From a virus: DNA of 37,503 nucleotides. Shown piece after piece: positions 16,545-33,298 of the stretch; the first letter of the stretch is position 1, and each line of letters begins with the position of its first letter. The notes under the pieces were generated by a model. It had not been told where the DNA came from and searched no databases. It saw nothing but the letters and a program-made list of their open reading frames with translations. A program made the position numbers and the translations under genes. The DNA lies in the IMG/VR virus record IMGVR_UViG_3300037245_001110, positions 1 to 37,503 of that record; one strand, 5' to 3'.

Positions 16545-16575
16545 GCAATATATAACATTTTACTTAATTATGCAA
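16545..16575 (-). promoter_or_regulatory. Promoter for the tail operon (extended phage motif)
   Basis: On the minus strand TTG (16575-16573) starts the motif TTGCATAATTAAG, followed after exactly 20 bases by TATATTGC (16552-16545). The predicted start lies near 16538, about 20 bases before the ATG at 16517. The -7 box differs from the host TAnnTTTG consensus at its last two bases. Confidence 0.7.
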
Positions 16576-16604
16576 TAGTTATTTTCACATTTAATTGCAT
16601 TTTC

Positions 16605-17804
16605 TTACATAGCTCTTTGTCTTCCTTTCTTCTTTTTCGGCGAAAGGTATGTCTGCACAGCATAACGCATCGCGTCAAGTAGATGATTCAGTATATCAGC
16701 AGGGACCTCACCCTTTTTATCTAGCCACAGCCACCCCCGCAGCTCCTTCGCTAGGTTGGTTGATTCTTTAGTGATGACGAGTCGATAACCTTGCAACATC
16801 TTAATGTCATCAAGTATCTTATTCTTAGAGACCTCTACTATATTGAACTTGTGCTTACACTTTTTCAAATCCTTAATAGTCCTTGATGCCTGCGAGTCTG
16901 CTATAATCAACTTCTTGCCTACATTTCGGCTGTTGATAACGTCTCCTAACTCATCGGTTGATAGGTTGTTCTGATATATCTCTTCGTGCAGATATATGAT
17001 CTTATTAACATTATCGACAGCAACTTTGATTAGTGCATCAGGATCGCGCACACCGAAGTCTAGGCCGTACAAATAGGGCAAGTCGTTATTAAATTCGCCA
17101 AACTCCCAATTCTGAAGTATAGCACCTTCGAGCTGGCCCAGCAGTCCAAGCCCGTAAACCTTCCACCAGTTGGCCCAATACTTATTCCTAATGTTAGATT
17201 CCTTAAAGAGATCCTTGCTGTCAGGATTAAAGAAGCCCTTAACAAGAGCCTTCTTAATCTTCTTGACAATACTACTCTCAAGGCATTCGTTATCCTTATA
17301 TGTTAGCACCAACCAATCGGTATCTTCATCATCGGTAAATTCTTCGTGAGCCCAGAATTCGTTCGATGGGTTAAAGTCAATCCACACCTCGCGAGAGGTC
17401 CTCATGTCTAATTGGTCGAACGCATCAAACGATATGTTATTCGCTTCGTTGACGTACAGTATATGACGACGAGCACCCCTGAGCTTATCTGCCTGATCTG
17501 CACCAAAGAACTCGATATAGGACCCATTGGCGAATGTATACTTCGAATCCGTCTCACGCCAATTGTTAGGATTCCAACGATTAGTAGACTTCATTATCTT
17601 AATAAAGTCTTTTCTTGCACCACGGCGCAAATGCGGGAAGTTTTCAGAAACTATTGATATCTCAAGGTCCTTATTCTTGCAAGCCTTATCAATGAGTATC
17701 GGAATGATGCCATAAGTTTTACCAGCGGAAGTCCCCCCAGGTACGAATTTGTAGCGCTTCTTTAACTTAAGAAGCTTATTTATCGCTGTCGTTCGAAAGA
17801 ACAT
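16605..17804 (-). CDS. terL: Terminase large subunit, 399 aa
   Basis: The packaging motor ATPase and genome nuclease. Walker A-like GGTSAGKT is at residues 23-30, Walker B ILYVNE at 115-120 with Glu120 as the likely catalytic acid, and a coupling-type segment VWIDFNPSNEFW follows at about 137-148. The RNase H-like nuclease domain starts at LYGLDFGVRDPDAL (about 244-257), with IIADSQASRT and a final ILNHLLDAMRYAV supplying further acidic residues. At 399 aa it is at the compact end for the family. It overlaps the small-subunit gene by 29 bases, and the basic tail KKKKGRQRAM is complete. Confidence 0.93.
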   Translation of the reverse strand: MFFRTTAINKLLKLKKRYKFVPGGTSAGKTYGIIPILIDKACKNKDLEISIVSENFPHLRRGARKDFIKIMKSTNRWNPNNWRETDSKYTFANGSYIEFFGADQADKLRGARRHILYVNEANNISFDAFDQLDMRTSREVWIDFNPSNEFWAHEEFTDDEDTDWLVLTYKDNECLESSIVKKIKKALVKGFFNPDSKDLFKESNIRNKYWANWWKVYGLGLLGQLEGAILQNWEFGEFNNDLPYLYGLDFGVRDPDALIKVAVDNVNKIIYLHEEIYQNNLSTDELGDVINSRNVGKKLIIADSQASRTIKDLKKCKHKFNIVEVSKNKILDDIKMLQGYRLVITKESTNLAKELRGWLWLDKKGEVPADILNHLLDAMRYAVQTYLSPKKKKGRQRAM

Positions 17805-18201
17805 CTTCTTCAGGGAATAATGGTTGCTCTTCTACTATAGAAATTCTTGTCGGAGACTTTAGTCCAACAATCTCGCAAATCTGTTTAAGTATTAACAATG
17901 CGCACTTGTAATCCTGTATCTTAACACTCTTGGAGTACAGATCGTCAAGTCTGGCCAGCGTTCTTCCTTTCTCAATATCAACGTCATTCTCGAAATTCAA
18001 GAATGTCTGTCTCACTTTTCTGATGTAATTATCAACAGTTCTAAACTTACTTAACTCTGAGGCTGTTGTAAAATAACCGTCATCAGTCCACTTTTTTGAA
18101 AAGAATTGAACAATTTCCTTCCGTTGCTTCGATCCATTTGTCATAAACGCATGAACCTCTCGAACCCGTTCATATACAATGTGTTGCGGTGTCATTGCCA
18201 T
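17776..18201 (-). CDS. terS: Probable terminase small subunit, 141 aa
   Basis: A 141-residue helical protein that lies immediately upstream of and overlaps the large terminase gene, the standard place for the DNA-recognition subunit. The N-terminal part (FMTNGSKQRKEIVQFFSKKW) looks like a helix-turn-helix; the C-terminal part (ALLILKQICEIVGLKSPTRI) is the familiar small-terminase helix followed by a 'GLK.P' motif. The assignment rests mainly on synteny and helix pattern. Confidence 0.75.
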   Translation of the reverse strand: MAMTPQHIVYERVREVHAFMTNGSKQRKEIVQFFSKKWTDDGYFTTASELSKFRTVDNYIRKVRQTFLNFENDVDIEKGRTLARLDDLYSKSVKIQDYKCALLILKQICEIVGLKSPTRISIVEEQPLFPEEDVLSNDSDK

Positions 18202-18202
18202 A

Positions 18203-18778
18203 TCACTTACCTACAATTTGATTCATCCAACTATTATGAAAATCATATATCTCTTTTGATTCTGTAATTACAAAATTTTCTATTCTTGCATTTTGGGAAT
18301 AGTTTGCACTCGATTCTATCGAGAAAAACATGTCCTTTGTCCTAAATGTAGAAACCTTAGCGTGCAACTTGTAGTGCACTTTAAGATCTATCTTTCCATC
18401 AATTGCCAATTCTGCAACCTGAGCATATAAATGAAATTTTCGCGTCTTCAATGACTGGTCAATAAGTAGACACATGTCAATATTGCAATCTTTTATCAAT
18501 TCAATGTAATCCTGATTAATCGACCATGTCGTCATACTAATGTGTTCAGGATCATACTTTTCAATCATATATTTTAACAGTTCGATACTCCCGAAATTGT
18601 CAGAGGAAATAAGATGCAAACATTCATCCTTTCCCATATCTGGCATAACTTCTTTCAATTCGCTATACCTATCTGCGAGCACTGCCTTTTTTTTTATGCT
18701 GGTCTTTATCGACTTGCCTTTAATCTTCTCAGTTGAATTGAGATTAGTGTCTCCAAATAAATGCCCGTATTCGCTCAT
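18203..18778 (-). CDS. Phospholipase D-like (single HKD) protein, 191 aa
   Basis: The C-terminal half contains KLHAKVSTF with His139 and Lys141, then IESSANYSQNARIENFVI, matching the HxK...(G/S)SxN core of PLD-superfamily phosphodiesterases; the usual Asp after HxK(x4) is not obvious. One HKD half per chain means activity, if any, would need a dimer, as in PLD-type nucleases such as Nuc or BfiI. The N-terminus is basic (KIKGKSIKTSIKKKAVLADR). The gene precedes terminase by one base and is the first gene of that operon, so a role in DNA packaging or end processing is plausible; anti-host nuclease is an alternative. Confidence 0.7.
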   Translation of the reverse strand: MSEYGHLFGDTNLNSTEKIKGKSIKTSIKKKAVLADRYSELKEVMPDMGKDECLHLISSDNFGSIELLKYMIEKYDPEHISMTTWSINQDYIELIKDCNIDMCLLIDQSLKTRKFHLYAQVAELAIDGKIDLKVHYKLHAKVSTFRTKDMFFSIESSANYSQNARIENFVITESKEIYDFHNSWMNQIVGK

Positions 18779-18794
18779 GTCTTTTTATTTGTAT

Positions 18795-18825
18795 GCAATA
18801 TACGAAATCTAAAGGGAGTAATCAA
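18795..18825 (-). promoter_or_regulatory. Promoter for the PLD-terminase operon
   Basis: On the minus strand TTG (18825-18823), 20-base spacer, TATATTGC (18802-18795), the same -7 box as the tail-operon promoter. The start codon at 18778 is about 17 bases downstream of the -7 box. It lacks TTGCATAATTAAG, although a related TATGCATAATTATG lies a few bases upstream. Confidence 0.55.
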
Positions 18826-18892
18826 TTATTTATGCATAATTATGATAAAAAGAACTCTAACAACAATCACATGACACGTACACATTATTAGG

Positions 18893-19165
18893 CAACACTT
18901 TATTATGAAAAACAACACTTTATTTTTACCGACAACACTTTATTATAATAAGTGTTGCGGTCTAATTAGTTGCACAGTAAGAGTTTATGTATTAACGCAA
19001 CACTTTACTGTATTTTTCCTCGTAGCGTATAAGTGTTAAGAACTTTTCAAGTTATATTATAATACTAATAAGGCTGTTGGTGTCGATAAAGTGTTGCGGT
19101 CTAATCAACTGAGTGCTAGCGTGATTACTAAAAAAGGGCGCAACACTTATATAAATAAAGTGTTG
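18893..19165. repeat. Iteron-like array in a 460-base gene-free region
   Basis: The gap from 18779 to 19240 has no gene. It holds nine copies of CAACACTTTATT or close variants: forward at 18893, 18913, 18933, 18998 and 19141, and inverted at 18947, 19030, 19085 and 19154. Copies 18933/18947 and 19141/19154 form two dyads, each 25 bases long. A 17-base perfect direct repeat (AAGTGTTGCGGTCTAAT) occurs at 18950 and 19089. The region sits where leftward late genes and rightward small genes diverge. An origin of replication with iterons, or an operator array for a phage repressor, are the two natural readings; I cannot decide between them. Confidence 0.85.
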
Positions 19166-19189
19166 CGTGTGCTTTTTAGGGGTGAAAAT

Positions 19190-19220
19190 TTGCATAATTA
19201 AGTAAGTTTTTGTATGTTTG
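19190..19220 (+). promoter_or_regulatory. Rightward promoter (extended phage motif)
   Basis: TTG at 19190-19192 begins TTGCATAATTAAG, and TATGTTTG lies at 19213-19220 after exactly 20 bases. The ATG of the first rightward gene is at 19241. The 19141-19165 dyad ends 24 bases upstream of the TTG, a position where a bound protein could repress or activate. Confidence 0.78.
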
Positions 19221-19240
19221 TGAGGAATTAAGGAAAAGAC

Positions 19241-19369
19241 ATGAGCAAGAAACTAACTAAAGACGAACTCAAGAAGAAACTCAAGTACCACAAATCGAGA
19301 GTGAAGTATTACAAAAGTAAACTCATTCAGATCGAAGATAGTGAAAGGAAGATTGGATTTAAATACTAA
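19241..19369 (+). CDS. Small basic helical protein, 42 aa
   Basis: A 42-residue product with 13 Lys and 2 Arg residues, predicted to be one long helix (KLTKDELKKKLKYHKSRVKY). It begins 20 bases after a good -7 box and ends 3 bases before the next gene, so it is the first gene of the rightward transcript. Such charge patterns fit nucleic-acid binding or a small coiled coil. Because it lies next to the iteron array it could act on it, but that is speculation. Confidence 0.65.
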   Translation: MSKKLTKDELKKKLKYHKSRVKYYKSKLIQIEDSERKIGFKY

Positions 19370-19372
19370 TAA

Positions 19373-19705
19373 ATGAAAAAACAATACACCCAAAACGGAA
19401 CAATACTCAAGGAAGAATCTCTTTCCATTGCGATTAATGGCAAAACAAAAGTCATATCGTACGTTAATGTCGACGACTGCCATGTATGTACATCTCATAA
19501 AGAAAACTCACAGGGCTTCATTATAGTTAACTTTAGTGGAGTTTCTAAGACAGCAGCTCGCGCAGTGTATGAAAGTCAAATTAAAGAGATATCTGCTGGC
19601 TATCGATTAAGAAGGATGTGCAAAGAAAAGGATTGCATCAATCCTAAGCACATGGAAGTAGTGACCGATAGTAGAGGGAATAGTCTTATTAGTAGGAAGT
19701 GGTGA
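19373..19705 (+). CDS. HNH-family protein lacking the usual histidines, 110 aa
   Basis: The C-terminal half follows the HNH_3-type endonuclease pattern: CHVCTSHKENSQGF at about 38-51, a strand-helix with KTAARAVYESQIKEISAGYR, then CKEKDCINPKHMEVVTDSRGN at about 85-105, matching the family's 'C...CxNPxHL...T...N' block. Two histidines normally present, the one in 'AHR' (here AAR) and the one before the first Cys of the block (here RRMC), are replaced. The protein therefore probably binds DNA without cutting it, or uses other residues. Related proteins in phages are often homing-type nucleases or regulators. It lies directly next to the iteron array. Confidence 0.7.
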   Translation: MKKQYTQNGTILKEESLSIAINGKTKVISYVNVDDCHVCTSHKENSQGFIIVNFSGVSKTAARAVYESQIKEISAGYRLRRMCKEKDCINPKHMEVVTDSRGNSLISRKW

Positions 19706-19812
19706 TTAGCGTTGGCATAAACGCAGCTGAAGAAACTAAAATGGAACAAATTAAATAATTAAACCACACCGCTAATTGACAAGCAATTGCGTTTGATACG
19801 CTGTTATACTTT

Positions 19813-19827
19813 GTTTTTGAGCGGTGG
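19813..19827 (+). repeat. Array junction motif copy 1 (GTTTTTGAGCGGTGG)
   Basis: GTTTTTGAGCGGTGG lies 18 bases before the ATG at 19846. An upstream CCACACCGC at 19764-19772 can partly pair with GCGGTGG. Copies 2 and 3 stand before two other small genes of the array. Confidence 0.7.
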
Positions 19828-19845
19828 TAATTTAAAACTTAACAG

Positions 19846-19962
19846 ATGACAAGAGAAGAGCATTTATTAGTGATACTCTCAGAAGAGTGTAGCGAAGTTG
19901 CGAAAGAAGCTTGCAAAGCACTAAGATTTAGTAGAAACTTGATAAAACATACAACATTATGA
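19846..19962 (+). CDS. Truncated MazG-like protein, 38 aa
   Basis: The product begins MTREEHLLVILSEECSEVAK and continues EACKALRFSR. The 'LxxLSEECxEVxxxxxKxLRF' text matches the N-terminus of MazG-like nucleotide pyrophosphohydrolases found in phages, which normally run to about 100-120 residues with a second ExxD metal motif. Here the protein stops after 38 residues, without the second motif, and its TGA overlaps the ATG of the next gene. It is most likely a remnant or a domain fragment and should lack hydrolase activity. Confidence 0.6.
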   Translation: MTREEHLLVILSEECSEVAKEACKALRFSRNLIKHTTL

Positions 19963-20153
19963 GTGCAGATAAGGAAATAAAAAAGCAGAGCAATTTGCCT
20001 CCACTTAGTGTTAGCACACGTTTTTTATGTGATGCGTGTGGGCTTGAAAAAGATGATAGTAGGAAGCATAAAATGTATGATGAAAATTGGAACGAACAAG
20101 AAGGCTTGAATATGTGCGAGGACTGCTTTAGGGATGGACTTGGCGTTAGTTAA
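19959..20153 (+). CDS. Small zinc-ribbon protein, 64 aa
   Basis: Two CxxC pairs, CDAC near residue 24 and CEDC near residue 53, separated by 25 residues, give a typical zinc-ribbon or treble-clef layout. The start ATG overlaps the stop of the MazG-like fragment (ATGA), implying coupling. The coding sequence at about 20004-20017 contains CTTAGTGTTAGC, a variant of the array junction text, so the N-terminal part may have been assembled across a junction. Function unknown. Confidence 0.6.
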   Translation: MSADKEIKKQSNLPPLSVSTRFLCDACGLEKDDSRKHKMYDENWNEQEGLNMCEDCFRDGLGVS

Positions 20154-20295
20154 ATGTGGGCTAACGATTTGCGGTATGATTTGATTTTTAACGGATTTGA
20201 AACACCTACCTATCAAATAAAATTGAAGTTAAACCGAAGCAGAAAGGGTAAATAAGCACTGCAACCACACTGTCTTATATTTATTGTTGTAGTGC

Positions 20296-20310
20296 GTTTT
20301 TGAGCGATGG
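20296..20310 (+). repeat. Array junction motif copy 2 with flanking inverted repeat
   Basis: GTTTTTGAGCGATGG differs from copy 1 by one base, and that change (GGTGG to GATGG) creates the ATG used by the next gene at 20307. Just upstream, GCACTGCAAC (20256-20265) pairs with GTTGTAGTGC (20286-20295) across a 20-base loop. The 150 bases before this gene hold no gene. Confidence 0.7.
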
Positions 20311-20483
20311 AGATTGAAAAAGATACAGTAAAAGAAAACCCTAATTACCTTGGGTACGACGAAGATCATAACGGAGATTGGGACGATTTTTTTATGTGTC
20401 CTGATTGCAAAGAAAATAATTACATAACAATTAATGATACTGAATGTATATTGTGCCGTGAAAAAATCGAGTGGGTAGGCTAA
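20307..20483 (+). CDS. Small zinc-ribbon protein, 58 aa
   Basis: An acidic 58-residue protein with CPDC near residue 31 and CILC near residue 47, a two-knuckle zinc ribbon. Its N-terminus is Asp/Asn/Glu rich (GYDEDHNGDWDD). The start codon lies within junction motif copy 2; no other Met is present before residue 30. The stop TAA overlaps the ATG of a 21-codon reading frame. Function unknown. Confidence 0.6.
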   Translation: MEIEKDTVKENPNYLGYDEDHNGDWDDFFMCPDCKENNYITINDTECILCREKIEWVG

Positions 20484-20548
20484 TGAACTACAATGAACAA
20501 ATGTATGAGCCGTGCTTGTTCGATACTTTCAAACTAAACGGCTTTTAA
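20483..20548 (+). CDS. Tiny coupled reading frame, 21 aa
   Basis: MNYNEQMYEPCLFDTFKLNG plus one residue, starting in a TAATG overlap with the gene before. Coupling by TAATG and the matching strand make translation possible, but at 21 residues chance cannot be excluded. Confidence 0.3.
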   Translation: MNYNEQMYEPCLFDTFKLNGF

Positions 20549-20579
20549 TCGCATGGCTTATTACATAGTGTTAGCTTTT

Positions 20580-20592
20580 GTTTGAGCGGTGG
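20580..20592 (+). repeat. Array junction motif copy 3 (GTTTGAGCGGTGG)
   Basis: A version of the junction motif two T shorter, 14 bases before the ATG at 20607. It is preceded by CATAGTGTTAGC (20564-20575), which recurs at 20976-20987 within the next-but-one gene. Confidence 0.65.
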
Positions 20593-20606
20593 AAAATCTT
20601 AATAGA

Positions 20607-20765
20607 ATGAGTGATTTAATTTGTAAAATAACAGGATTAAGTAAACAAGTAGTAAAGCTTGATAAGAATTTTCATATTTACATACACGGTGATAAGAAAA
20701 ATATAGAAGAGGGAAGCGATGATAAAGGTAAATTTATAAAGCTTTACTATAATGAAGTGAGATAG
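20607..20765 (+). CDS. Hypothetical small protein, 52 aa
   Basis: A 52-residue basic protein with beta-prone text: CKITGLSKQVVKLDKNFHIY at about 6-25 and KGKFIKLYYNEVR at the end. Cys6 and the 'C.iTG' opening recall small zinc-less remnants of ribbon domains, but no family is recognised. It stands alone between two array junctions. Confidence 0.55.
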   Translation: MSDLICKITGLSKQVVKLDKNFHIYIHGDKKNIEEGSDDKGKFIKLYYNEVR

Positions 20766-20831
20766 TGCGCTGGCTAATGAAAGCTAACGTGAAATGTATG
20801 GCAATGTTTATTTAACGAAATAATAGAACGA

Positions 20832-21092
20832 ATGTTGAAACTTAGAAAAGCAAACAGAACCGAAAAAAAAGACTTCCCGAATGCGGTTGCAACTATAACT
20901 ATAGGTAGGCACGAAGCTCAATTAACGCAAAAAGATATTGATTTACTACACAGCAAGTTAAATAAATTTGCTATACATAGTGTTAGCAAGCTGTTAATTG
21001 CGTTTTGGTACTATCTACGACACGGTAACGACCAAGGTACGCCTAAAGAAGAAATACAAGAAGGTGTTGATGTGTTCATTAGCAATTTATAG
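20832..21092 (+). CDS. Hypothetical protein, 86 aa, possibly a junction fusion
   Basis: An 86-residue protein. The middle residues (about 48-53) are encoded by CATAGTGTTAGC, the same text that precedes junction motif copy 3, so the second half may have been joined to the first through an array junction. The N-terminus is basic (MLKLRKANRTEKKDF); the C-terminus is acidic. The gene is followed by GCTAACGTTCGGAGCTATG, another junction-like element. No family recognised. Confidence 0.5.
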   Translation: MLKLRKANRTEKKDFPNAVATITIGRHEAQLTQKDIDLLHSKLNKFAIHSVSKLLIAFWYYLRHGNDQGTPKEEIQEGVDVFISNL

Positions 21093-21198
21093 TTGCTAAC
21101 GTTCGGAGCTATGAATAGTTGGCTCAACCATAACAGCAAATAAACAAACGAGTACAAACCGCCCAATGACCGAGAGCGAGGGCATAAAATCAAATAAT

Positions 21199-21456
21199 AT
21201 GAATAAATTTAATTTAGGCGAAGAAGCAAAAGACAAGATCACTGGATTTAAAGGCATTTTGACAGGGTACATGAAATGCTTAACAGGTTGTGACCAATAC
21301 TGTATCCAGCCAAAATGTGAAGGGGTTCTGGCTGATAAATTACCCGAGGCTAACTGGATTGATGAAGGCAGGGTAGAGTTGATTGAAGGGATAGGTGTGG
21401 AACCAGGAAAAGTGGCAAGCAAGTCTGGAAGAGGCTCATGCTGCCCTGCTCCGTGA
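21199..21456 (+). CDS. Phage protein of the 'xDxITGFxGI' family, 85 aa
   Basis: I choose the ATG at 21199 over one at 21166 because the conserved text begins right after it: MNKFNLGEEAKDKITGFKGI, then LTGCDQYCIQPK and WIDEGRVELIEG. This layout (a strand ending in KDxITGFxGI, a 'GCxQYxIQP' strand and a 'xDExRxE' strand) is common in small phage proteins with a compact SH3-like beta barrel and no assigned function. The C-terminus adds a Ser/Gly/Cys/Pro-rich tail (SGRGSCCPAP). A short relative lacking the second half is at 23845-23961. It is the last gene of the rightward array. Confidence 0.65.
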   Translation: MNKFNLGEEAKDKITGFKGILTGYMKCLTGCDQYCIQPKCEGVLADKLPEANWIDEGRVELIEGIGVEPGKVASKSGRGSCCPAP

Positions 21457-21512
21457 TAGCGTGCGTTGGCTAAAATCAAGAAACGAGATAAAGCCAATTG
21501 TTTATAGCTCTT

Positions 21513-21569
21513 GTTCTCTGCTGTACTTTCAAGTTCTGTTTTTTCTTTAAGAACTGTATAGCAGAGAAC
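21513..21569. repeat. Long imperfect hairpin at the end of the small-gene array
   Basis: GTTCTCTGCT at 21513-21522 is an exact inverse of AGCAGAGAAC at 21560-21569; inside, AGTTCT (21532-21537) pairs with AGAACT (21550-21555). It lies in the 222-base gene-free gap between the last rightward gene and the leftward recombination genes. It may be a structured RNA, a cruciform or another array junction. Confidence 0.65.
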
Positions 21570-21644
21570 TAATTTATATAATTCGTGTTTTTACATGAAT
21601 TATTATCAATAGTTAAAGGCCGTTCTTTTCAGAATAGCGTAATT

Positions 21645-21680
21645 AAAAAAAAGCCCGCACATTAAGTACGGGCTTTTTTT
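21645..21680. terminator. Bidirectional intrinsic terminator
   Basis: GCCCG and CGGGC form the stem around an 11-base loop, flanked by eight A on the left and seven T on the right, extending the stem to about 12 pairs. It lies between convergent genes ending at 21456 (plus) and 21679 (minus) and can stop transcription from both sides. The minus-strand gene's stop codon lies at the very edge of the T run. Confidence 0.85.
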
Positions 21681-21924
21681 ATAAGACATCAGCAACGATC
21701 TCAACTTTGCAAATCTTCTTCATCTCACCAAGGCTGAGCGATCTATGGCAGCGTCCATCGCTATACTCATACAGCCAAAGTCGTTGAGCCTCGTCCTTTG
21801 CCTTCGCATCCGAGCCCTTGGTAGTAATAGCATATTCTCTGAATACTCTTCCGCCCAGCACACCCCTAGTAATCTCAAGCACTACATTCACTGTTCTCTC
21901 TGTGTTACTTTTCACGCTTTTCAT
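21679..21924 (-). CDS. Hypothetical protein, 81 aa, end of recombination operon
   Basis: An 81-residue alpha/beta protein: three strands in the first 35 residues (RTVNVVLEITRGVLGGRVF), a helical middle (AKAKDEAQRLWLYEYSDGR) and a final helix-strand. Its ATG overlaps the stop of the nuclease gene (4 bases). It ends at a bidirectional terminator. Possibly an accessory of the nuclease upstream; no family recognised. Confidence 0.65.
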   Translation of the reverse strand: MKSVKSNTERTVNVVLEITRGVLGGRVFREYAITTKGSDAKAKDEAQRLWLYEYSDGRCHRSLSLGEMKKICKVEIVADVL

Positions 21925-22397
21925 ACTTGAATACTATTAAATTCAGGATCATAATTAGACATTATATAGTCTAACTTTACAGACTCTGTGCTTGACATGC
22001 CTACCAGATTCTTTATATAATTCAACGTATCCGCACTCTCTAATGCCAAAAATCCAGCATTAAAACGATGATCCATCAAGCTATTCATCACCTGCATAAA
22101 GTGTTCGAACGAGAACACGAAGAACGCAAGTCCCGAGCGCTCTTGTACGGACTTGCACCAATCGTATTGATTTTTCAAGTGCTCAGTCTTGTGCGACGAT
22201 CCATTAACCTTGATCTCAATAGGGATCAAGTGCCCCCATTTTGAACAGTAATTTAAATCAGACACGCCCTTAATGAGGCCCAGTCCTTTCTTATTTCTAT
22301 TAGTCTTGTTTTCGGTTCTAAACAACATACCTCTTTCGGATTTGTATTCTTTATGAAACCACAAAACACATTTTTGCTGTAGCTGATCTTCGGTCAT
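21921..22397 (-). CDS. VRR-NUC/Hjc-like PD-(D/E)XK nuclease, 158 aa
   Basis: Residues about 40-72 show a PD-(D/E)XK core: KGVSDLNYC with the acidic residue after GxxD, then HLIPIEIKVNG with E-x-K. The N-terminus (TEDQLQQKCVLWFHKEY) corresponds to the first helix with its conserved Glu/Gln and is characteristic of VRR-NUC proteins. These are structure-specific endonucleases, often acting as Holliday-junction resolvases in phages. At 158 aa it is slightly longer than minimal VRR-NUC (about 100-130). It overlaps the exonuclease gene by 4 bases, fitting a recombination and branch-resolution role. Confidence 0.75.
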   Translation of the reverse strand: MTEDQLQQKCVLWFHKEYKSERGMLFRTENKTNRNKKGLGLIKGVSDLNYCSKWGHLIPIEIKVNGSSHKTEHLKNQYDWCKSVQERSGLAFFVFSFEHFMQVMNSLMDHRFNAGFLALESADTLNYIKNLVGMSSTESVKLDYIMSNYDPEFNSIQV

Positions 22398-23248
22398 AGG
22401 TATAAGTCTTTAACATTAACAAGCAACCACTCTTGCATTTCGGCGAAGTCCTTAGGAACAACGCTAACAATACCAGCAAGCTCAGCATATATATCCATAT
22501 CGAAATTAGTTTCAATAAGTCGAGAGATAAACATTTCTGCAAGCACTAGTCGAAATTGCATAGCGACAGAATGATTCTGAGAAAGCTCTACTTTAATAGT
22601 CTTCAGCATAGAGCCTTCGGGAAATCTTGGATCGAAGGATACTAATATCCCTAAGTCTGATTTGATTGCTAACATTTCAGAGTGAAGCTGCCAAAAATAC
22701 TGGTGAGACTCATCAACACCGTGCTGGCATTGGGTCATATGTATTCTCACGTTTTCAGGACACTTATTTTCAAATGCTACAGCCGTTTGTTTCCCGTCTA
22801 CAAGAATTAGCTTTGCATCCAAAGACGCTCCTGCGTTGCTTAAGAATCTTTCAAAACCAAGCTCAATAAGTTCAAATGAGGAGAACTTTGTCGCAAAATC
22901 GCTCTTGTCCCAGTTCTGAACGAAATAATTCTTAGCATCTTGCTCAAGATCTATCCCTCGACTCATTGCATACGTCTGAGGAATCTCTATCCGCTCACCA
23001 GTAACTCGCTCGAGAGCTACTTCTATCATGTATGTTAGAGCAGTATCCCCGAAGTCGATAAGCTTTTCTCGAGACGTCCATTCTCGTTTCGCCCTGGATT
23101 TGCACGACATTAATTTCTTCATATTACTTCCTGAGAACTTTCCCAACTTATCCTTGAACCACTCATCGGTTAGCTGCAAGTCTTTTTCTTTTTCTACTGG
23201 CACTTCGTAGAGTGCATTTTCCATTACTGGAAGGTTTTCATTGTCCAT
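22394..23248 (-). CDS. YqaJ/lambda-type exonuclease, 284 aa
   Basis: Processes double-strand ends for strand annealing. Features: KFSGSNMKKLMSCKSRAKRE near residues 35-55, as at the start of YqaJ domains; SRGIDLEQDAKNYFV at about 88-104, equivalent to the 'G.xxE..A' helix; SLDAKLILVDG with the active-site Asp; AFENKCP with E-x-K; and YFWQLHSEMLA, the conserved C-terminal helix with Gln. The 284-residue length is normal. It is paired with a Rad52-type annealase 740 bases upstream, a classical two-component phage recombinase. Confidence 0.83.
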   Translation of the reverse strand: MDNENLPVMENALYEVPVEKEKDLQLTDEWFKDKLGKFSGSNMKKLMSCKSRAKREWTSREKLIDFGDTALTYMIEVALERVTGERIEIPQTYAMSRGIDLEQDAKNYFVQNWDKSDFATKFSSFELIELGFERFLSNAGASLDAKLILVDGKQTAVAFENKCPENVRIHMTQCQHGVDESHQYFWQLHSEMLAIKSDLGILVSFDPRFPEGSMLKTIKVELSQNHSVAMQFRLVLAEMFISRLIETNFDMDIYAELAGIVSVVPKDFAEMQEWLLVNVKDLYL

Positions 23249-23276
23249 CTCTGTATTTTTTTTGGTTATAAAAATA

Positions 23277-23299
23277 GCTCGCCCCTTGGAGGGATGAGC
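23277..23299 (-). terminator. Possible terminator after ssb
   Basis: On the minus strand GCTCATCCCT pairs with AGGGGCGAGC (one mismatch, one G-T) around a CCA loop, followed by TATTTTTAT. It lies between the SSB and exonuclease genes in a 166-base gap. A short 30-codon reading frame in this gap has no support. Confidence 0.55.
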
Positions 23300-23414
23300 T
23301 GATAATGCAATGCTAAAAATGAACCTACTCTAAGGCGGTGAGAACACATTGCATTCATCGGTGACAGTTTCCGCCCTAACTCCGATGTGTGTTTAGCTCT
23401 CACTCTTTCATGTT

Positions 23415-23825: not shown

Positions 23826-23844
23826 GTCTTTTCTTTAAAGTTAG

Positions 23845-23961
23845 TTACTTTATTGGTGCAGAGTGGTCAGCCCCATTCTTTTTCGCTGCAACATCCTTCT
23901 TGTCGATACCACTAAATCCAGTGATCTTGTCTTTTGCTTCTACTTTTAATTTTAATTCCAT
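23845..23961 (-). CDS. Small protein with 'KDKITGF' motif, 38 aa
   Basis: A 38-codon reading frame in a 160-base gap between the annealase and SSB genes. It begins MELKLKVEAKDKITGFSGI; the AKDKITGF text is identical to that of the protein at 21199-21456 (AKDKITGFKGI), but the rest of that domain is missing and is replaced by a Lys/Ala-rich tail. It may be a shortened member of the family or a remnant; translation is likely because the leader is A/T-rich and operon packing is tight. Confidence 0.6.
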   Translation of the reverse strand: MELKLKVEAKDKITGFSGIDKKDVAAKKNGADHSAPIK

Positions 23962-23985
23962 TCTGTTTGTGTGTTAGATTAATAT

Positions 23986-24606: not shown

Positions 24607-24617
24607 CTTTTTGTATA

Positions 24618-24905: not shown

Positions 24906-24908
24906 GAT

Positions 24909-24939
24909 GCAATGTACAAAACTTTACTTAATTATGCAA
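24909..24939 (-). promoter_or_regulatory. Promoter for recombination operon (extended phage motif)
   Basis: On the minus strand TTG (24939-24937), part of TTTGCATAATTAAG, then after exactly 20 bases TACATTGC (24916-24909). It lies immediately after the two-hairpin terminator element and immediately before the ATG at 24905, so the mRNA would be essentially leaderless if the box position is right. Confidence 0.7.
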
Positions 24940-24962
24940 ATGATTCGTAATATTAATTCCGT

Positions 24963-25024
24963 TACCCAGAAATCCCCGCTACTTTCGTAGCGAGGTAACC
25001 TCAAGGATACCAAAAATTGGGGTT
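24963..25024 (-). terminator. Two-hairpin element closing cassette 1
   Basis: On the minus strand AACCCCAA and TTGAGGTT form a first stem; CCTCGCTAC-GAAA-GTAGCGGGG forms a second stem with a GNRA-type loop, followed by ATTTCTGGGTA. Blocks TACCCAGAAA, CCCCGCTAC, GGTAACCTCAAG and TTGGGGTT (plus strand) are shared with the element at 32425-32487. It follows the stop codon of the cassette 1 gene by 15 bases and most likely terminates it. Confidence 0.7.
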
Positions 25025-25039
25025 AATTTCTTTTGATAA

Positions 25040-25339
25040 TTACTCAGCATTTTTAAAGTAAACACTATGGCATTCATCGTTAATAATCACATGGTGATAT
25101 TCTTCTAGTTCATTGTGAAATCTATGACAGTCAGTGGCGTGTAGTTCTAGCATTGGAATTTTACCCTCTTCAATTGCCAAAATAAAGCCATCTGAATAAA
25201 TTGCATTATCTGTGTCGAATTCTGATGAATAAACAGCACCGTGACCATGCTCATCGGTTAAAACATCTAAAATAACACCGTCTAAATCAATGTTACCATT
25301 CATAAATTGAGTGCTTTTGTTTCTTGTATTTAAATACAT
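25040..25339 (-). CDS. Cassette 1 accessory protein, 99 aa
   Basis: A 99-residue, acidic, His-rich protein (nine His; ELHATDCHRFHNELEEYHHV), mostly beta in the first half. It is the only gene in a unit bounded by the 129-base repeat upstream and the two-hairpin terminator downstream, with its own promoter. The ATG lies 3 bases after the repeat ends, so the leader is identical to that of cassette 2. Small proteins in such independently expressed slots are often anti-defence or host-takeover factors; I see no motif that identifies this one. Confidence 0.72.
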   Translation of the reverse strand: MYLNTRNKSTQFMNGNIDLDGVILDVLTDEHGHGAVYSSEFDTDNAIYSDGFILAIEEGKIPMLELHATDCHRFHNELEEYHHVIINDECHSVYFKNAE

Positions 25340-25373
25340 ATCTGATAGTTTTAATTACTGAATTGCTATAAGA

Positions 25374-25405
25374 CAAATATACAACCCTCTGCTTAATTAT
25401 GCAAA
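25374..25405 (-). promoter_or_regulatory. Cassette 1 promoter
   Basis: TTTGCATAATTAAG from 25405, spacer of exactly 20 after TTG, and TATATTTG at 25381-25374, a perfect Bacteroidota -7 box. Transcription should start near 25367, giving a leader of about 28 bases. Confidence 0.85.
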
Positions 25406-25415
25406 TAAAACACAT

Positions 25416-25451
25416 AAAAAAAGCAAAATAATTTCACTTTATTTTGCTTTT
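25416..25451 (-). terminator. Terminator of the primase gene (in repeat copy 1)
   Basis: AAAAGCAAAATAA pairs perfectly with TTATTTTGCTTTT over a 7-base loop, and the minus strand continues with three more T (seven in all), the normal form of an intrinsic terminator. It starts 30 bases after the stop codon of the primase-helicase gene. Confidence 0.85.
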
Positions 25452-25480
25452 CTTTGAGTGTTAGTTAGTTACGCAAATAT

Positions 25481-27877: not shown

Positions 27878-27997
27878 AGATTTCTTTTTTTTGCATTGTC
27901 TTTTTAAAAAGAAAGGGAGGGCGGAAAAAGATTAAAACCGCTTTTCACTTAAGTAATGAGCTGAAGTTATCCCTAGGAGTAAATGTAGTGAAAAAAT

Positions 27998-29725
27998 CTA
28001 ATTTATTACCTCAATTTTCATTCTACTCATAGTCACATGCACCCATCCGTGCGAATGTCCTTTATACTTAGCATACTCAGATAGCGCCTGTCGCGAATAT
28101 CTTGCTTTGAAATACCTCTCCATTGCCTGGATGTCAGAATAGGTTAAGATATTAACGAGAGCTTCGCGTTTTTTGAACTCCGCAACTTTCATCACAACCT
28201 TATTGATTAACAGTCTATTGATAATCCATCCAATTTTATACCCATTTGCTTTCGAAAATCGCTCCATCTCATCGAATGACATTTGGCTTACAGGTTTGAC
28301 GGCTCTGAATTTACCGTTGTCATCCTGTGACATTGGCGACAATTTTGCTTTCTCAAGCTCTTTCTCAACCCTGAATATATAACCGCATTCAGGACATATT
28401 TTCACAGATGCGAGGATATATTCATCACATCCGAGTTTTTTATTCTTGTCTGGAGTCCCACTCTCACCACATTCTTTGATGGGTGGCACTCCCGACCCTG
28501 CACCTGAGCTGTGATGCAAGGCCCATAATCTAGGCATTTTATACCCGCCCAATCTCTCTGCGTTTAATCCGAAGTCGAGAATATTAAAATGCGTCTTGTC
28601 AATACTTTTGCACGGCCTCGAACCGCGACCGAGCATTTGCAAGTATAGCACCTCTGAGATCGTTGCACGGAATAATACGATTGTTTCGATAGCAGGAAAA
28701 TCAAAGCCCGTTGTCAATATGCCTGCGTTTACGAGAACGGGAAACTCACCAGATTTCCAGCGTTTAATCAAGTCATTTCGTTCCCCTGAGTACATCGCCA
28801 TTGAGTTCTTGTACTCGTTATAGTAGTCAAGTTTCTCGTAGTATTTGATCCACTCAGGAGCTGCGCTTGCTCTATCTTCAGACTCGTAGCTCTCAGGTCG
28901 CTTAGGTGCTGCCATGCTGGAGCACACGAATTTTGCTTTAATCCCATTGGAGCAAAACTCTTTCGCAGTACGAACGGAATGTATGATGTTGGTGCAAAAA
29001 ACTAATGTCGTGGTGTTCGGGACATGCTCACGCCATTCATCGATAACACCACCATAAAGCTTCGGAGTGTCGTATTTCTTAAACATGTCACTTTCGGAAT
29101 AGTCGCCTTTAGAATTCTTCTTAACACCCTTCATATCGGGCGAATCTTTGAATCCACAATACATTTCTGGCATCAAGAAACCTAATTCGATAAGCTCCTT
29201 GGTTGTCAATGTATGAACGATCTCGTCGTAGTCTTCTGCGAGCTGCCTTTGTTTTCCGCCGCGCTTTGGGGTTGCGGAAAATCCGATTATAGTTTTGCCT
29301 TTGAAAATCCCAGCTTCAAAAAAAGCATTAAACTCTTGCTTGTGACATTCGTCGATTATAACAAGGTCGATAGAGTCTAGGAATTCAGACCACTTAGGCT
29401 TGCTCAGTCTATTTTTTAATGTCTGAGCCATCGCGACGAAAGTCTGCCCGCTGTCAGGTGGGTGCGTCCGTCCTGCCTGAATATATTGCGGACGACTTCC
29501 GAACTGCTCTAACGTACCACCAGTGCCACGCAGTAACTCCTCGCGATCCGTGAGTATGAGAATCTTAGAACCTTTCGCTTCTGCTCGTGATACGATGTAA
29601 GAGAAGACTACCGTCTTCCCTCCACCCGTTGGCATCTCCATGATGACACTTTTCCTCTTTGATCTCCTTAAGGCGTCAACGGTGTCGTTAACTCCTTGTT
29701 GTTGATAGGGTCTGAGTGTTATCAT
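27998..29725 (-). CDS. Superfamily 2 DEAD/DEAH-type helicase, 575 aa
   Basis: RPYQQQGV at the N-terminus (Q-like motif), Walker A EMPTGGGKT at 30-38, motif II DECH at 125-128, motif III SATP at 150-153, and motif VI LQMLGRGSRP (about 365-375). A C-terminal Cys cluster (CGESGT, GCDEY, CPECGYIF) can form a zinc finger. The layout fits the type III restriction-like/RadD/UvsW group of helicases, which remodel branched DNA in recombination-dependent replication; no nuclease or methylase domain is attached. It overlaps the upstream small gene by 4 bases. Confidence 0.88.
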   Translation of the reverse strand: MITLRPYQQQGVNDTVDALRRSKRKSVIMEMPTGGGKTVVFSYIVSRAEAKGSKILILTDREELLRGTGGTLEQFGSRPQYIQAGRTHPPDSGQTFVAMAQTLKNRLSKPKWSEFLDSIDLVIIDECHKQEFNAFFEAGIFKGKTIIGFSATPKRGGKQRQLAEDYDEIVHTLTTKELIELGFLMPEMYCGFKDSPDMKGVKKNSKGDYSESDMFKKYDTPKLYGGVIDEWREHVPNTTTLVFCTNIIHSVRTAKEFCSNGIKAKFVCSSMAAPKRPESYESEDRASAAPEWIKYYEKLDYYNEYKNSMAMYSGERNDLIKRWKSGEFPVLVNAGILTTGFDFPAIETIVLFRATISEVLYLQMLGRGSRPCKSIDKTHFNILDFGLNAERLGGYKMPRLWALHHSSGAGSGVPPIKECGESGTPDKNKKLGCDEYILASVKICPECGYIFRVEKELEKAKLSPMSQDDNGKFRAVKPVSQMSFDEMERFSKANGYKIGWIINRLLINKVVMKVAEFKKREALVNILTYSDIQAMERYFKARYSRQALSEYAKYKGHSHGWVHVTMSRMKIEVIN

Positions 29726-29988
29726 TTAGAGTTAAGCTTCTTTAATAACATCTTGCAAAGATCCTCATTGCTCGTATGGTGATTGCACCACACAAAATCG
29801 CACAATTTTTCTTTTGTAATGTATTTTTCAGACTGTTTCGGGTCAAGAACTTCGTAGCCTCTGTCCTTAACTTCTTCGAGTAGATCACTATCGTCGATAG
29901 CTTCAAGAATGTCGCTAAGGTAGTCATCAACATCTATAGTAGTATCTACATCCACGGTAGCTTCTACGCATATGTGTATCTTTGCCAT
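29722..29988 (-). CDS. Acidic small protein, 88 aa
   Basis: I choose the ATG at 29988, which follows an A-rich leader (AAAAAAAGAGAT), over one 36 bases upstream. The product starts MAKIHICVEATVDVDTTIDV, with alternating Val and Asp that form acidic strands, followed by acidic helices and a C-terminal helix with two Cys (LCDFVWCNHH). It lies between the SMC-like ATPase and the helicase and overlaps the latter by 4 bases, so it may be an accessory of either. The acidity suggests DNA mimicry as one option, untested. Confidence 0.65.
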   Translation of the reverse strand: MAKIHICVEATVDVDTTIDVDDYLSDILEAIDDSDLLEEVKDRGYEVLDPKQSEKYITKEKLCDFVWCNHHTSNEDLCKMLLKKLNSK

Positions 29989-30036
29989 ATCTCTTTTTTT
30001 TAACAGCGCACAACTCAAAGTCATGCGCCATTTGGT

Positions 30037-31776
30037 TTAATTAAAAAATACTTCGCCACCTTCAATCAACAACTCATTCTCTGCAAGATTTTCTCTCTTG
30101 AAATCTCCTGTTATCGAGGTTAAGATCGTGAGGTCATTTTCCTCTGCTATCTTCGCAATTATAGCATATGACTTTTTGTCCATCGGCACATCGTCAAGGA
30201 AGATGTAGTTAAGTGCCTTTGCTTTCAGCTTTAATCTCGCAACTTGCAGTAAGATGCCGATTATAGGCTTCTGTGTAGACGAGTATGAAACTAAAAGACG
30301 CTCATCACCCTCATTGTGAAAGTATTCAGGATCGAACGCACCGGTATACACTGTTTTGATGTCCATCTTTCCATCTTCGGAATAAAATGGTTTCATATAT
30401 AACCCCTCAACACCTGTATCTATTTGAGAATAGAGTTTTGCAAGTTCTTTTCTCTTAATCTCAACCTCTGCGCACGCCCTAACCCAGTCTCTATTGATTT
30501 CATACCGATTAATCATGCTGTTATTGTGCTTAGCAATCTCAATCTGCTTTTCAACATTTTCGATTTTCAAATCTGATTCCTTGGTATCAACAGGCTTGTT
30601 CTCAACTGCCGTATACTCCTTCATTATAGTATCGCGCTTTTGAAGTAATTCTTTGAAATCTGGGTGATAATCAACACCCTCAACACGTAGTATTCTGCCA
30701 TTTTCGATATGAGGACAAAGTGGTTTGATAGGCTCTTTTTGTGGTGGATACTTCTCTGAAAGCGCTGTCGTCAATCCGTCAACGAATGTGTTCAGATCTC
30801 TTTTGAGTCCAAAGATCTGACCCTGAGTAGTATCATAATTAATAAATGATAGTGATCTAAGATTCTTTATAATATCGGCAATCACTATTTTTTCGAGATT
30901 ATAACCATCGCTAAGCTTCTTGTTCGCAAAAGAAAGCTCATTATAATCACTCATCAGTCTGTCCGAAATTTTCCTACACTCCTCAACAACAACAGCACCT
31001 TTTTTAATCACCTCTGACTTTTTATTCGCAAACTCAGCTTCAGCATCACCAGCGGCTTGCCCCTTCGAAACAAGGAGGGAATTTCTTTCTTGCTCCAACT
31101 TATCAACATCAGTAGACTTCATTTCTGAAAGTTGTTCTAACTTGTACCCATCTCTTTCAAAATCGGTGACATAAGCACCTTCATGCTGACATTGATTTCG
31201 CAAAGAGTCGCGCTCTTCAGTTAGCTGATCCAACTCTCCTAGGATAGATTTTTCATAGCCGATGTGTTTTTTATCGAAAATCACACCCAGTTTCGCAAGC
31301 TCGTCACGGAATAGTGCGAACATGAATTTTCTATGCACGGTTTCGTTCTCTGACAGAAAGTCTTTTGACCCAAATGTCATTGCATTTGCAATCAAATCCA
31401 TAAACGCGACAGGAGTCGCCTTCACCCCGTCTATTATCGGATTCATCACCTTTTTTCCATTCAGATCCTTTTCGAACAATTTAAATGTAGGGCTGTTCCC
31501 TTTCGTTTTTTTTGCTTCGATAAACACCTTCTTGTCTCCGTCCAGCAATTGCACCTCACTATCCCACTCGTCACCATACTGCTCTGCGTCTGCTAGCGAT
31601 CCGCGACCCTGCACCGTAGTTTTTACAGCTTTCTGCATTGTAGACTTGCCTTCACCAGATTTTCCCTTAATAGCGATTATGCCACTTTTAAACTTTTCAA
31701 AGTCAAACTCTAGCGCTTTGAAGATTCCGAAATTCGTTGCCCGGAATGAAATAATTTTTACTTTTTTTTGTTTCAT
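30037..31776 (-). CDS. SMC/SbcC-like ATPase, 579 aa
   Basis: Walker A GKSGEGKST lies at 38-46 in an N-terminal half-domain that starts KIISFRATNFGIFKALEF, the typical RecF/SbcC opening. A central coiled coil (about 165-460) carries Cys-containing CPHIENG near 353, perhaps a reduced zinc-hook. The C-terminal half-domain has a signature-like ERLLVSYSSTQKP and Walker B NYIFLDDVPM (about 523-532), then a D-loop-like segment. SbcC homologues work with an SbcD nuclease; none is visible next to it. It likely handles DNA ends or branches together with the downstream helicase. Confidence 0.82.
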   Translation of the reverse strand: MKQKKVKIISFRATNFGIFKALEFDFEKFKSGIIAIKGKSGEGKSTMQKAVKTTVQGRGSLADAEQYGDEWDSEVQLLDGDKKVFIEAKKTKGNSPTFKLFEKDLNGKKVMNPIIDGVKATPVAFMDLIANAMTFGSKDFLSENETVHRKFMFALFRDELAKLGVIFDKKHIGYEKSILGELDQLTEERDSLRNQCQHEGAYVTDFERDGYKLEQLSEMKSTDVDKLEQERNSLLVSKGQAAGDAEAEFANKKSEVIKKGAVVVEECRKISDRLMSDYNELSFANKKLSDGYNLEKIVIADIIKNLRSLSFINYDTTQGQIFGLKRDLNTFVDGLTTALSEKYPPQKEPIKPLCPHIENGRILRVEGVDYHPDFKELLQKRDTIMKEYTAVENKPVDTKESDLKIENVEKQIEIAKHNNSMINRYEINRDWVRACAEVEIKRKELAKLYSQIDTGVEGLYMKPFYSEDGKMDIKTVYTGAFDPEYFHNEGDERLLVSYSSTQKPIIGILLQVARLKLKAKALNYIFLDDVPMDKKSYAIIAKIAEENDLTILTSITGDFKRENLAENELLIEGGEVFFN

Positions 31777-31788
31777 CTTTTATATTTG

Positions 31789-31968
31789 TTAACGTGAATT
31801 TTGCTTTAAATTAATCAAATCACAAGCCGCTTTCGCAGTCGTTTCGATTGCGAAGACTTTAACTTTCTTGCTTTCGATCGTGAGGAATGACAGGACGCCA
31901 TTATTTCTGAGCTCTACTATATAACCATTTGCTGCGGTTATGTAGTTTTCCGTGAAGGTTGCTTTCAT
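31789..31968 (-). CDS. Hypothetical small protein, 59 aa
   Basis: A 59-residue protein, MKATFTENYITAANGYIVEL at the start, beta-prone then helical (AIETTAKAACDLINLK). Its ATG overlaps the stop of the ACP-like gene by 4 bases, and it ends 12 bases before the SMC-like gene; both spacings support it as a real gene. No family recognised. Confidence 0.6.
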   Translation of the reverse strand: MKATFTENYITAANGYIVELRNNGVLSFLTIESKKVKVFAIETTAKAACDLINLKQNSR

Positions 31969-32216
31969 CTAATGTGCCTTTCAAGGTAATCGATCATCCC
32001 TCCAACAGTCTCTTGCTTGTAGACATCGTTATCTGGAAAGCTAGATTCAAAGTCATACTCTAGCAAGCTAATCAATACAACTGCTTTCGAAGGAGTGAAG
32101 TTTAGTTCTTTAAAAGTCGTGTCCTCATTAATGCTAATCCTTACGTCTAGATCCATTGACCTCAGAGCCTCTGTTATTACTTCCAATATGCGTGAGCGTG
32201 TTTGTTTTTCTGTCAT
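31965..32216 (-). CDS. Acyl-carrier-protein-like protein, 83 aa
   Basis: The length (83), acidic charge and helix pattern match acyl carrier proteins: helix 1 RSRILEVITEALRSM, then EDTTFKELNF, helix 2 KAVVLISLLEYDFESSFPD, and QETVGGMIDYLERHI, the last equivalent to the ACP ending 'xTVGDxxxYIxxH'. The 'LGxDSL' phosphopantetheine site is replaced by LNFTPS: Pro42 stands where the modified Ser should be and Ser43 follows. So the protein probably keeps the ACP fold without the prosthetic group, perhaps as a decoy or protein-binding module. It overlaps the downstream small gene by 4 bases. Confidence 0.65.
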   Translation of the reverse strand: MTEKQTRSRILEVITEALRSMDLDVRISINEDTTFKELNFTPSKAVVLISLLEYDFESSFPDNDVYKQETVGGMIDYLERHIR

Positions 32217-32251
32217 GGTTTCGATAGTTTCGTTTTAAAATTAAGTTGTCA

Positions 32252-32395
32252 TTACGTTTCGCAGGATCCCCAATGTCCATACTGGCAATCTTTTGGTATG
32301 TATAGGCATGTCGAGCAAAACGATCCGTCAAAATCAAATTCTCCACACTCAGGACATTCTATTGGTAGGTCATCGTCTTCGTCGTAAGGTTCCAT
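32252..32395 (-). CDS. Small zinc-ribbon protein, 47 aa
   Basis: A 47-residue acidic protein, MEPYDEDDDLPIECPECGEF, with CPEC at 14-17 and CSTC at 27-30, plus Cys37 and Cys45: a compact zinc ribbon. It begins 30 bases after the closing element of cassette 2 and precedes the ACP-like gene by 35 bases. No clear promoter is seen. Zinc-ribbon peptides of this size in phages often modulate transcription or translation; not proven here. Confidence 0.65.
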   Translation of the reverse strand: MEPYDEDDDLPIECPECGEFDFDGSFCSTCLYIPKDCQYGHWGSCET

Positions 32396-32424
32396 GATTT
32401 CGATATTTTTTAGTTGATATTTTT

Positions 32425-32487
32425 TACCCAGAAAACCCCGCTACAACATTGCAGCGGGGTAACCTCAAGACTATCAAGCTTGGGGTT
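32425..32487 (-). terminator. Two-hairpin element closing cassette 2
   Basis: Shares four sequence blocks with 24963-25024. On the minus strand AACCCCAA/TTGAGGTT (one mismatch) is followed by a GC-rich stem CCCCGCT...AGCGGGG, then TTTTCTGGGTA. It begins 2 bases after the stop codon of 32490-32762. The stems are kept while several stem bases differ from copy 1, as expected when structure is under selection. Confidence 0.72.
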
Positions 32488-32489
32488 GA

Positions 32490-32762
32490 TTATGCATCTT
32501 GCATAAGTCCGTAGGTGTATTTTATTTTGCATATCGAGAACGTGCCGTACTTTTCGTGCCACAATCTTAGCTCCTCATAAAGCTCTTCGCTAAAAAAGTC
32601 TAGGTTGTTTTTTATTTTATTTAGTGTATATTTTAAATTGACTCCTTTTTTAGAGTCAAACACTATGAGCGTGTCAACCATTCCGTAATTTGTTGCACCC
32701 ATTTTTATGATTGCTTTCTTTGTCTCTCTGCCTAGATCTTCGCTTATTTTCTTATTTTGCAT
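32490..32762 (-). CDS. Cassette 2 accessory protein B, 90 aa
   Basis: A 90-residue basic helical protein: KKISEDLGRETKKAIIKMGA, then NYGMVDTLIVFDSKKG and LKYTLNKIKNNLDFFSEELY. It is the second gene of cassette 2, 22 bases behind the first, and ends 2 bases before the closing two-hairpin element. It is not similar to the cassette 1 protein. Function unknown; the cassette setting suggests an accessory role such as host or defence interaction. Confidence 0.68.
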   Translation of the reverse strand: MQNKKISEDLGRETKKAIIKMGATNYGMVDTLIVFDSKKGVNLKYTLNKIKNNLDFFSEELYEELRLWHEKYGTFSICKIKYTYGLMQDA

Positions 32763-32784
32763 AGTCTTAATTTTTATGATTATT

Positions 32785-33186
32785 TTATTTTACCATTTCG
32801 ATTGCATCGAAGCCGTACTTTGTGCACAAAACCATATTTTGTTTTGTGTTTTTCATTCTAAATCCATAACCTGAATCTATGATAGAACAATCGAACTTGC
32901 TTGCTTCAAATTCACGCTCTATTTTTTTCTTCTCAGTTTTTACTGTAGTTGTGTCACATTGTATTACAATATTCCTGTTATTTTTTACACCAAACTTCGC
33001 GGCGAGATCGTCAGATATGCAAACTCTATCATTTTCAGGGTGTAAGAATATTTCATATGTATTATCTTCGATTGTACATGTTATTTTTTCTTTAGAGCAT
33101 CCCGTTTCTGCGTCTATCCAGATTTCAGCTGTTACTTTGTGACTTCCTTTTTTTGTTGTTGCGGTTGTTTTAATTTTACTTTTCAT
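32785..33186 (-). CDS. Cassette 2 accessory protein A, 133 aa
   Basis: A 133-residue, Lys- and Thr-rich protein with mixed strands: KIKTTATTKKGSHKVTAEIW, SKEKITCTIEDNTYEIFLHP, a middle with NIVIQCDTTTVKTEKKK and an end GYGFRMKNTKQNMVLCTKYG. It has six Cys but no CxxC pairs. The ATG lies 3 bases after the 129-base repeat, so its leader is the same as in cassette 1. No family recognised. Confidence 0.7.
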   Translation of the reverse strand: MKSKIKTTATTKKGSHKVTAEIWIDAETGCSKEKITCTIEDNTYEIFLHPENDRVCISDDLAAKFGVKNNRNIVIQCDTTTVKTEKKKIEREFEASKFDCSIIDSGYGFRMKNTKQNMVLCTKYGFDAIEMVK

Positions 33187-33220
33187 AATTGATAGTTTTA
33201 ATTACTGAATTGCTATAAGA

Positions 33221-33252
33221 CAAATATACAACGTTCTGCTTAATTATGCAAA
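33221..33252 (-). promoter_or_regulatory. Cassette 2 promoter
   Basis: TTTGCATAATTAAG from 33252, an exact 20-base spacer after TTG, and TATATTTG at 33228-33221. Identical to the cassette 1 promoter apart from two spacer bases. Confidence 0.85.
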
Positions 33253-33262
33253 TAAAACACAT

Positions 33263-33298
33263 AAAAAAAGCAAAATAATTTCACTTTATTTTGCTTTT
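33263..33298 (-). terminator. Terminator of the lysis operon (in repeat copy 2)
   Basis: The same perfect 13-base stem, 7-base loop and seven-T tail as at 25416-25451. It lies 14 bases after the stop codon at 33312 and would end the whole late transcript. Confidence 0.85.

Follow-up and report, generated by a model that had tools for sequence, protein, structure and literature searches.

We analysed the virus contig IMGVR_UViG_3300037245_001110, a single record of 37,503 bases (positions 1-37,503, hereafter the window), and found that five of its promoters carry the same 16-bp element. This element is real and discrete, it is rigidly phased to the -7 box of each promoter, and in the available data it is private to this phage. 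Promoters of the Bacteroidota that are recognized by the sigma factor sigma-ABfr carry TTTG at -33 and TAnnTTTG at -7. The five phage sites resemble them in the TTG and box, in the N20 spacing between the two and in the short distance to the start of a gene; they differ in that two of the five boxes end in TTGC and in that the TTG is followed by 13 further invariant or nearly invariant bases, in a spacer that is described as variable in the host. Judged from its sequence, the element would be a phage-private addition to host-type sigma-ABfr promoters, most likely read by a putative phage factor, and we place the probability of this reading at about 0.5.

A preliminary description of the window had listed five copies of a 13-base motif, each with a -7 box at a fixed distance. 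On re-scanning, the five exact copies of TTGCATAATTAAG were recovered at the positions and on the strands claimed, against 0.0042-0.0051 expected on both strands under Markov models of orders 1-3. When sites upstream of genes were compared with random coding positions, all five exact copies proved to be intergenic, in a window whose intergenic share is 8.9% by our own list of 54 open reading frames (ORFs). In every case a TAnnTTTG or TAnnTTGC box begins exactly 10 bases 3' of the 13-mer, so that the -33 TTG stands at the N20 spacing of a sigma-ABfr promoter, and a same-strand ORF follows the box at a distance of 4-35 nt. The boxes are TATATTGC, TACATTGC, TATATTTG (twice) and TATGTTTG; three of the five read TAnnTTTG and two end in TTGC, and the strict form TAHHTTTG is found only in the two copies of a repeat described below.

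Four of the extended promoters are on the minus strand. The first, TTGCATAATTAAGTAA-N7-TATATTGC (16545-16575), is upstream of a 291-aa ORF on the late or structural side of the genome, and the second, TTGCATAATTAAGTAA-N7-TACATTGC (24909-24939), precedes a 95-aa ORF and the Erf, SSB and exonuclease genes. The sequence TTGCATAATTAAGCAG-N7-TATATTTG occurs twice, at 25374-25404, upstream of a 99-aa ORF (25040-25339), and at 33221-33251, upstream of a 133-aa ORF (32785-33186) with the helicase and primase genes. The fifth, TTGCATAATTAAGTAA-N7-TATGTTTG (19190-19220), is on the plus strand, ahead of a 42-aa ORF (19241-19369) and small rightward genes. The promoters at 25404 and 33251 both lie in a direct repeat of 135 bp and 97% identity (minus strand, 25337-25471 and 33184-33318), each copy of which comprises a terminator-like hairpin, the extended promoter and a leader, and they are therefore counted as one. 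Thus all five sites are exact as claimed, and only four of them are independent.

The alignment of the independent sites (16575, 24939, 19190 and 33251, with 25404 counted under the last) also extends the conserved block from the 13 bases first described, which are indeed exact, to 16. The element reads TTGCATAATTAAGYAR at 19190-19205 on the plus strand, and the other copies, at 16560-16575, 24924-24939, 25389-25404 and 33236-33251 on the minus strand, fall in the same alignment. Mean identity among the four sites is 94% in the 16-bp block, 71% in the -7 box and 38% at spacer positions 16-19. Beyond the TTG, 10 bases are identical in all four, a conservation that exceeds that of the -7 box. 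In 40 dinucleotide shuffles the 16-mer was found neither exactly nor with one mismatch, while the real sequence holds five exact copies and one with a single mismatch.

One alternative is that a single promoter cassette was recently duplicated and that its spacer has no function. The pair at 25404 and 33251 is plainly so derived, and the duplicated core differs only at two bases in the unconserved promoter spacer and at two just before the start codon. Among 16575, 24939, 19190 and 33251, however, the block is 88-100% identical while the surrounding sequence is at or near background: the two 50-nt flanks show 29% and 37% identity, against a background of 28 +/- 7%. Because the flanks and spacer positions 16-19 have diverged, the block is not accounted for by common inheritance of a longer cassette, and we consider this alternative very improbable.

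If transcription is taken to start 4 or 5 nt past the box, as in Flavobacterium johnsoniae (PMC6847099), the block spans -35 to -20, is centred at -27.5 and overlaps the -33 TTG. This position raises the alternative that the block is a strong upstream element of sigma-ABfr itself, AT-rich and near -28, for which no phage protein would be needed. The same paper places the centres of AT-rich motifs in F. johnsoniae promoters at -18 and -28. The consensus boxes of the duplicated copies also fit such an extended host promoter, as do single near-copies in other phages, where they stand at consensus promoters (phi4:1 and MT836885, 26/31; locus L046). The 10 exact bases beyond the TTG at four independent sites, conserved above the level of the -7 box, weigh against it, and spacers in Bacteroides thetaiotaomicron are reported (PMC7366714) to be AT-rich and variable in length. 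The element is also almost absent from host genomes. An 11-base core joined to a TAnnTTTG box at N19-21 gave six matches in 296 Bacteroidota genomes and one in the reversed control, and the perfect-dyad form was present in 1 of 198 host genomes. The element is not a host consensus, and we regard the extended host promoter as unlikely. The preliminary description had proposed a binding site for a phage regulator or an extended promoter, and this is the right kind of explanation: the extra bases are discrete, conserved and absent from host promoters generally.

Neither the perfect-dyad form nor the exact 13-mer followed by N10 and a TTGC box had any match among viral sequences. A scan of IMG/VR for the 13-mer with a loose box returned 48 stretches, many of which appear by eye to be repeats of a few homologous sequences; tblastn found no match to the window's proteins in their loci, and a full TAnnTTTG box at N20 was seen, by eye, in L046 alone. 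Single intergenic near-copies (26/31; weak matches, BLAST E ~0.8) occur in the Cellulophaga phages phi4:1 and phi17:2 and in the unannotated faecal phage contig MT836885, the last of which carries TTGCATATTTATGCAA, a better palindrome. No repeated extended promoter was found in the available stretches around relatives of the terminase (48-52% identity, 9 loci) or of the primase (33-42%, 6 loci), several of which are fragments. Searches of the open-access literature, with subscription journals mostly outside their reach, returned no description of such a motif for any phage of Bacteroidota.

The element forms an imperfect inverted repeat, TTGCATAA facing TTAAGYAR, in which six of eight positions pair, and at all five sites the best dyad within the surrounding 70 bases has this same centre. 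We propose that the main gene blocks would start from host-type sigma-ABfr promoters, five of them (four independent) with the element at -35 to -20, and that a dimeric DNA-binding protein, either encoded or recruited by the phage, may read the pseudo-dyad beside sigma region 4 and so switch the element-bearing operons together. We lean slightly toward a co-activator that would re-target the host polymerase in the manner of T4 MotA, without implying membership of that family, because the spacing is rigid and the -7 boxes depart from consensus at three of the four independent sites (two with TTGC and one with G at -9). In F. johnsoniae promoters (PMC6847099), T-6 and G-5 hardly vary, and a G is almost never seen at -9 or -10. 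In T4 (PMC2988021), several middle promoters, among them those of replication and recombination genes, likewise pair a phage-specific element centred near -30 with the -10/-7 element of the host. Unlike MotA promoters, the sites in the window retain the -33 TTG, so that the host element is not replaced, and they carry a 16-bp pseudo-dyad and would depend on a different sigma factor. Sigma appropriation in T4 is thus the nearest working analogue, offered by analogy and not as a family assignment.

The same pseudo-dyad could instead be the operator of a phage repressor whose dimer blocks polymerase at all five promoters, for immunity or early shut-off. The host boxes of the duplicated promoters are perfect, which puts a repressor operator almost level with a co-activator site in likelihood; as an explanation of the whole pattern we hold it to be somewhat unlikely, and it leads the alternatives. 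The block overlaps the -33 element and the upstream spacer, where a bound dimer would obstruct polymerase. A 15/16 match, GTGCATAATTAAGTAG, lies at 1846-1861 on the plus strand, inside ORF 1340-1873 and with no -7 box, and a related palindrome, CATAATTATG (18832), stands just upstream of the promoter at 18825, which lacks the element. The match at 1846 may be a lone site or chance, however, and the palindrome at 18832 may be chance as well. Furthermore, an operator needs no rigid spacing, the element is found at replication and structural promoters alike, and the scanned ORFs include no repressor or integrase family. The stoperators of cluster A mycobacteriophages (PMC9283540) are likewise short conserved sites spread across a phage genome for one regulator; they are numerous and asymmetric and also terminate elongation, whereas the window has five exact sites, all at promoters, and at most one lone site, the one-mismatch copy within a gene.

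Several observations weigh against a phage factor as the reader. The dyad is imperfect and would have no significance by itself, the independent sites number only four, and the available data include no relative close enough to show conservation of the element between phages. The AT-rich motif centred at -28 in F. johnsoniae (PMC6847099) means that the block may in part be no more than ordinary promoter sequence. Additionally, at the E-values applied, a PHROGs scan of 49 of the 54 ORFs found no family of sigma factors, of MotA/AsiA-like proteins or of repressors, and a Pfam and NCBIfam scan of a smaller ORF set found no regulator family. The 95-aa ORF at 7747-8034, put forward earlier together with the 42-aa protein as a possible binder of the motif, resembles a ribbon-helix-helix protein by eye only; it matched no family model, and its one PDB match, at E = 1, is meaningless. 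Its own promoter (7132, plus strand) does not carry the 16-bp element.

Promoters without the element are present as well. As the preliminary description had stated, the promoter at 18795-18825 (minus strand, TTG-N20-TATATTGC), upstream of a PLD-endonuclease-like ORF and the terminase genes, has the spacer and the box and lacks the extended motif. A second of this kind, TTG-N20-TAACTTGC (15048-15078, minus strand), precedes ORF 14582-15034, and TTG-N18-TATATTTG (7132-7160, plus strand) precedes the plus-strand island 7183-8034 that includes the ribbon-helix-helix-like ORF. The TTGC variant of the -7 box is a second, separable promoter feature. A TTG at N20 accompanies four of eight intergenic TAnnTTGC boxes (16575, 18825, 15078 and 24939) and 1 of 27 coding ones (Fisher p = 0.006), and the remaining four intergenic boxes fall within two terminator-like hairpins. 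For TAnnTTTG boxes the counts are 3/6 intergenic (19190, 25404 and 33251) and 1/27 coding (p = 0.014). Since the 16-bp element accompanies either box, and TTGC is found with the element and without it, the two are separable modules.

The division into TTTG and TTGC classes suggested earlier therefore has statistical support (p = 0.006), while its equation with early and late genes is plausible as a loose trend among few sites, the element itself spanning both boxes. Of the four TTGC promoters, three stand ahead of terminase or structural genes and the fourth ahead of the Erf/SSB recombination genes; the three TTTG-N20 promoters precede the replication genes, the 99-aa ORF and the small rightward genes.

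We also surveyed twelve phage records, whole or in large part and with the window among them, by single-linkage clustering of sites with a control box run alongside; eleven have a named or inferred Bacteroidota host, and for MW202828 no host is given. The window gave one cluster, that of the five extended sites, and none with the control box. The control box did cluster in Fpv11 and phi46:1, so that clusters of three or four are unsafe and only groups of at least five are firm. The Parabacteroides phages PF672P1 and PF672P2, near-identical sisters that count once, have TTG-N20-TATCTTTG promoters (5 in 50 kb and 7 in 41 kb, respectively) whose spacers are almost invariant around TAGTAAATAAT (TAGTAAATAATWAAY). 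They share with the window a private TTG-N20 promoter family with a near-invariant spacer and a 579-aa protein of 28% identity; they differ in spacer sequence, in having no clear dyad and in that the box is invariant too. B40-8 has a weak four-site group at N19, and the other eight records have no acceptable promoter family, a small group at N18 in elemoE having been rejected as low-complexity sequence. It is conceivable, and in our view quite doubtful, that some Bacteroidota phages, only distantly related to one another, each use a private promoter code in which a phage factor, unrelated to MotA/AsiA, reads an element between -35 and -18 at a rigid N20. Here such a code would include a -7 specificity for TAnnTTGCA, poorly read by sigma-ABfr, in a two-module early/late programme run on the host polymerase. 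In a related replication-gene setting, gp33 of Nonlabens phage P12024S (20595-21074) is annotated with sigma-70 region 2 and is possibly a phage sigma factor.

Phage takeover of the sigma-ABfr polymerase of Bacteroidota is apparently little described. An element this short and exact, whose positions are known, offers a direct bait for its putative regulator and supplies genetic tools for Bacteroidota with a promoter that is ready-made and phage-specific.

The phage is a tailed one, with a presumed Bacteroidota host. It encodes relatives of terminase, portal, head protease, tape measure, amidase, Erf, SSB, exonuclease, helicase and primase proteins. The host is taken as Bacteroidota because the primase has BT4734-like and PriCT-1 domains and because, among the 19 relatives that it has in the phage collection, 15 come from phages with named Bacteroidota hosts. 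The genome of about 37.5 kb is probably complete, and circular or circularly permuted, since the frame at the left end, continued into the right end, closes properly just before the next gene. A generic sigma-70 scan, with a model uninformative for Bacteroidota, found 46 sites against 51.6 expected, and scans of the window for Rfam families and tRNAs had no match.

Some further features were noted. The predicted transcription start of the 24939 promoter falls on the ATG (24905-24903) of the downstream 95-aa ORF; the transcript would be leaderless, or the true start codon would be further downstream. Just upstream of this promoter is one of two copies of a terminator-like hairpin element (24970-25020 and 32430-32490, minus strand), which consists of CTTGAGGTTACC, a GC-rich stem (CGCT..AGCGGGG) and then TTTCTGGGTAA. 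The 291-aa ORF directly behind the 16575 promoter (15642-16517, minus strand) is made of short repeat units of 12 and 9 nt. Between the divergent promoters at 18825 (minus) and 19190 (plus), positions 18893-19165 contain eight copies of CAACACTT/AAGTGTTG in both orientations (nine in the whole window), and the GC skew changes sign nearby; the region looks like a replication origin with iterons or an immunity operator region. Within the replication gene block, an 83-aa ORF (31965-32216, minus strand) is acyl-carrier-protein-like (Pfam PP-binding, 26.5 bits, cut-off 20.8). Finally, a 52-nt inverted repeat of 83% identity (21206-21257, plus, and 23906-23957, minus) encodes the peptide AKDKITGFxGI, which is common to two small ORFs on opposite strands.

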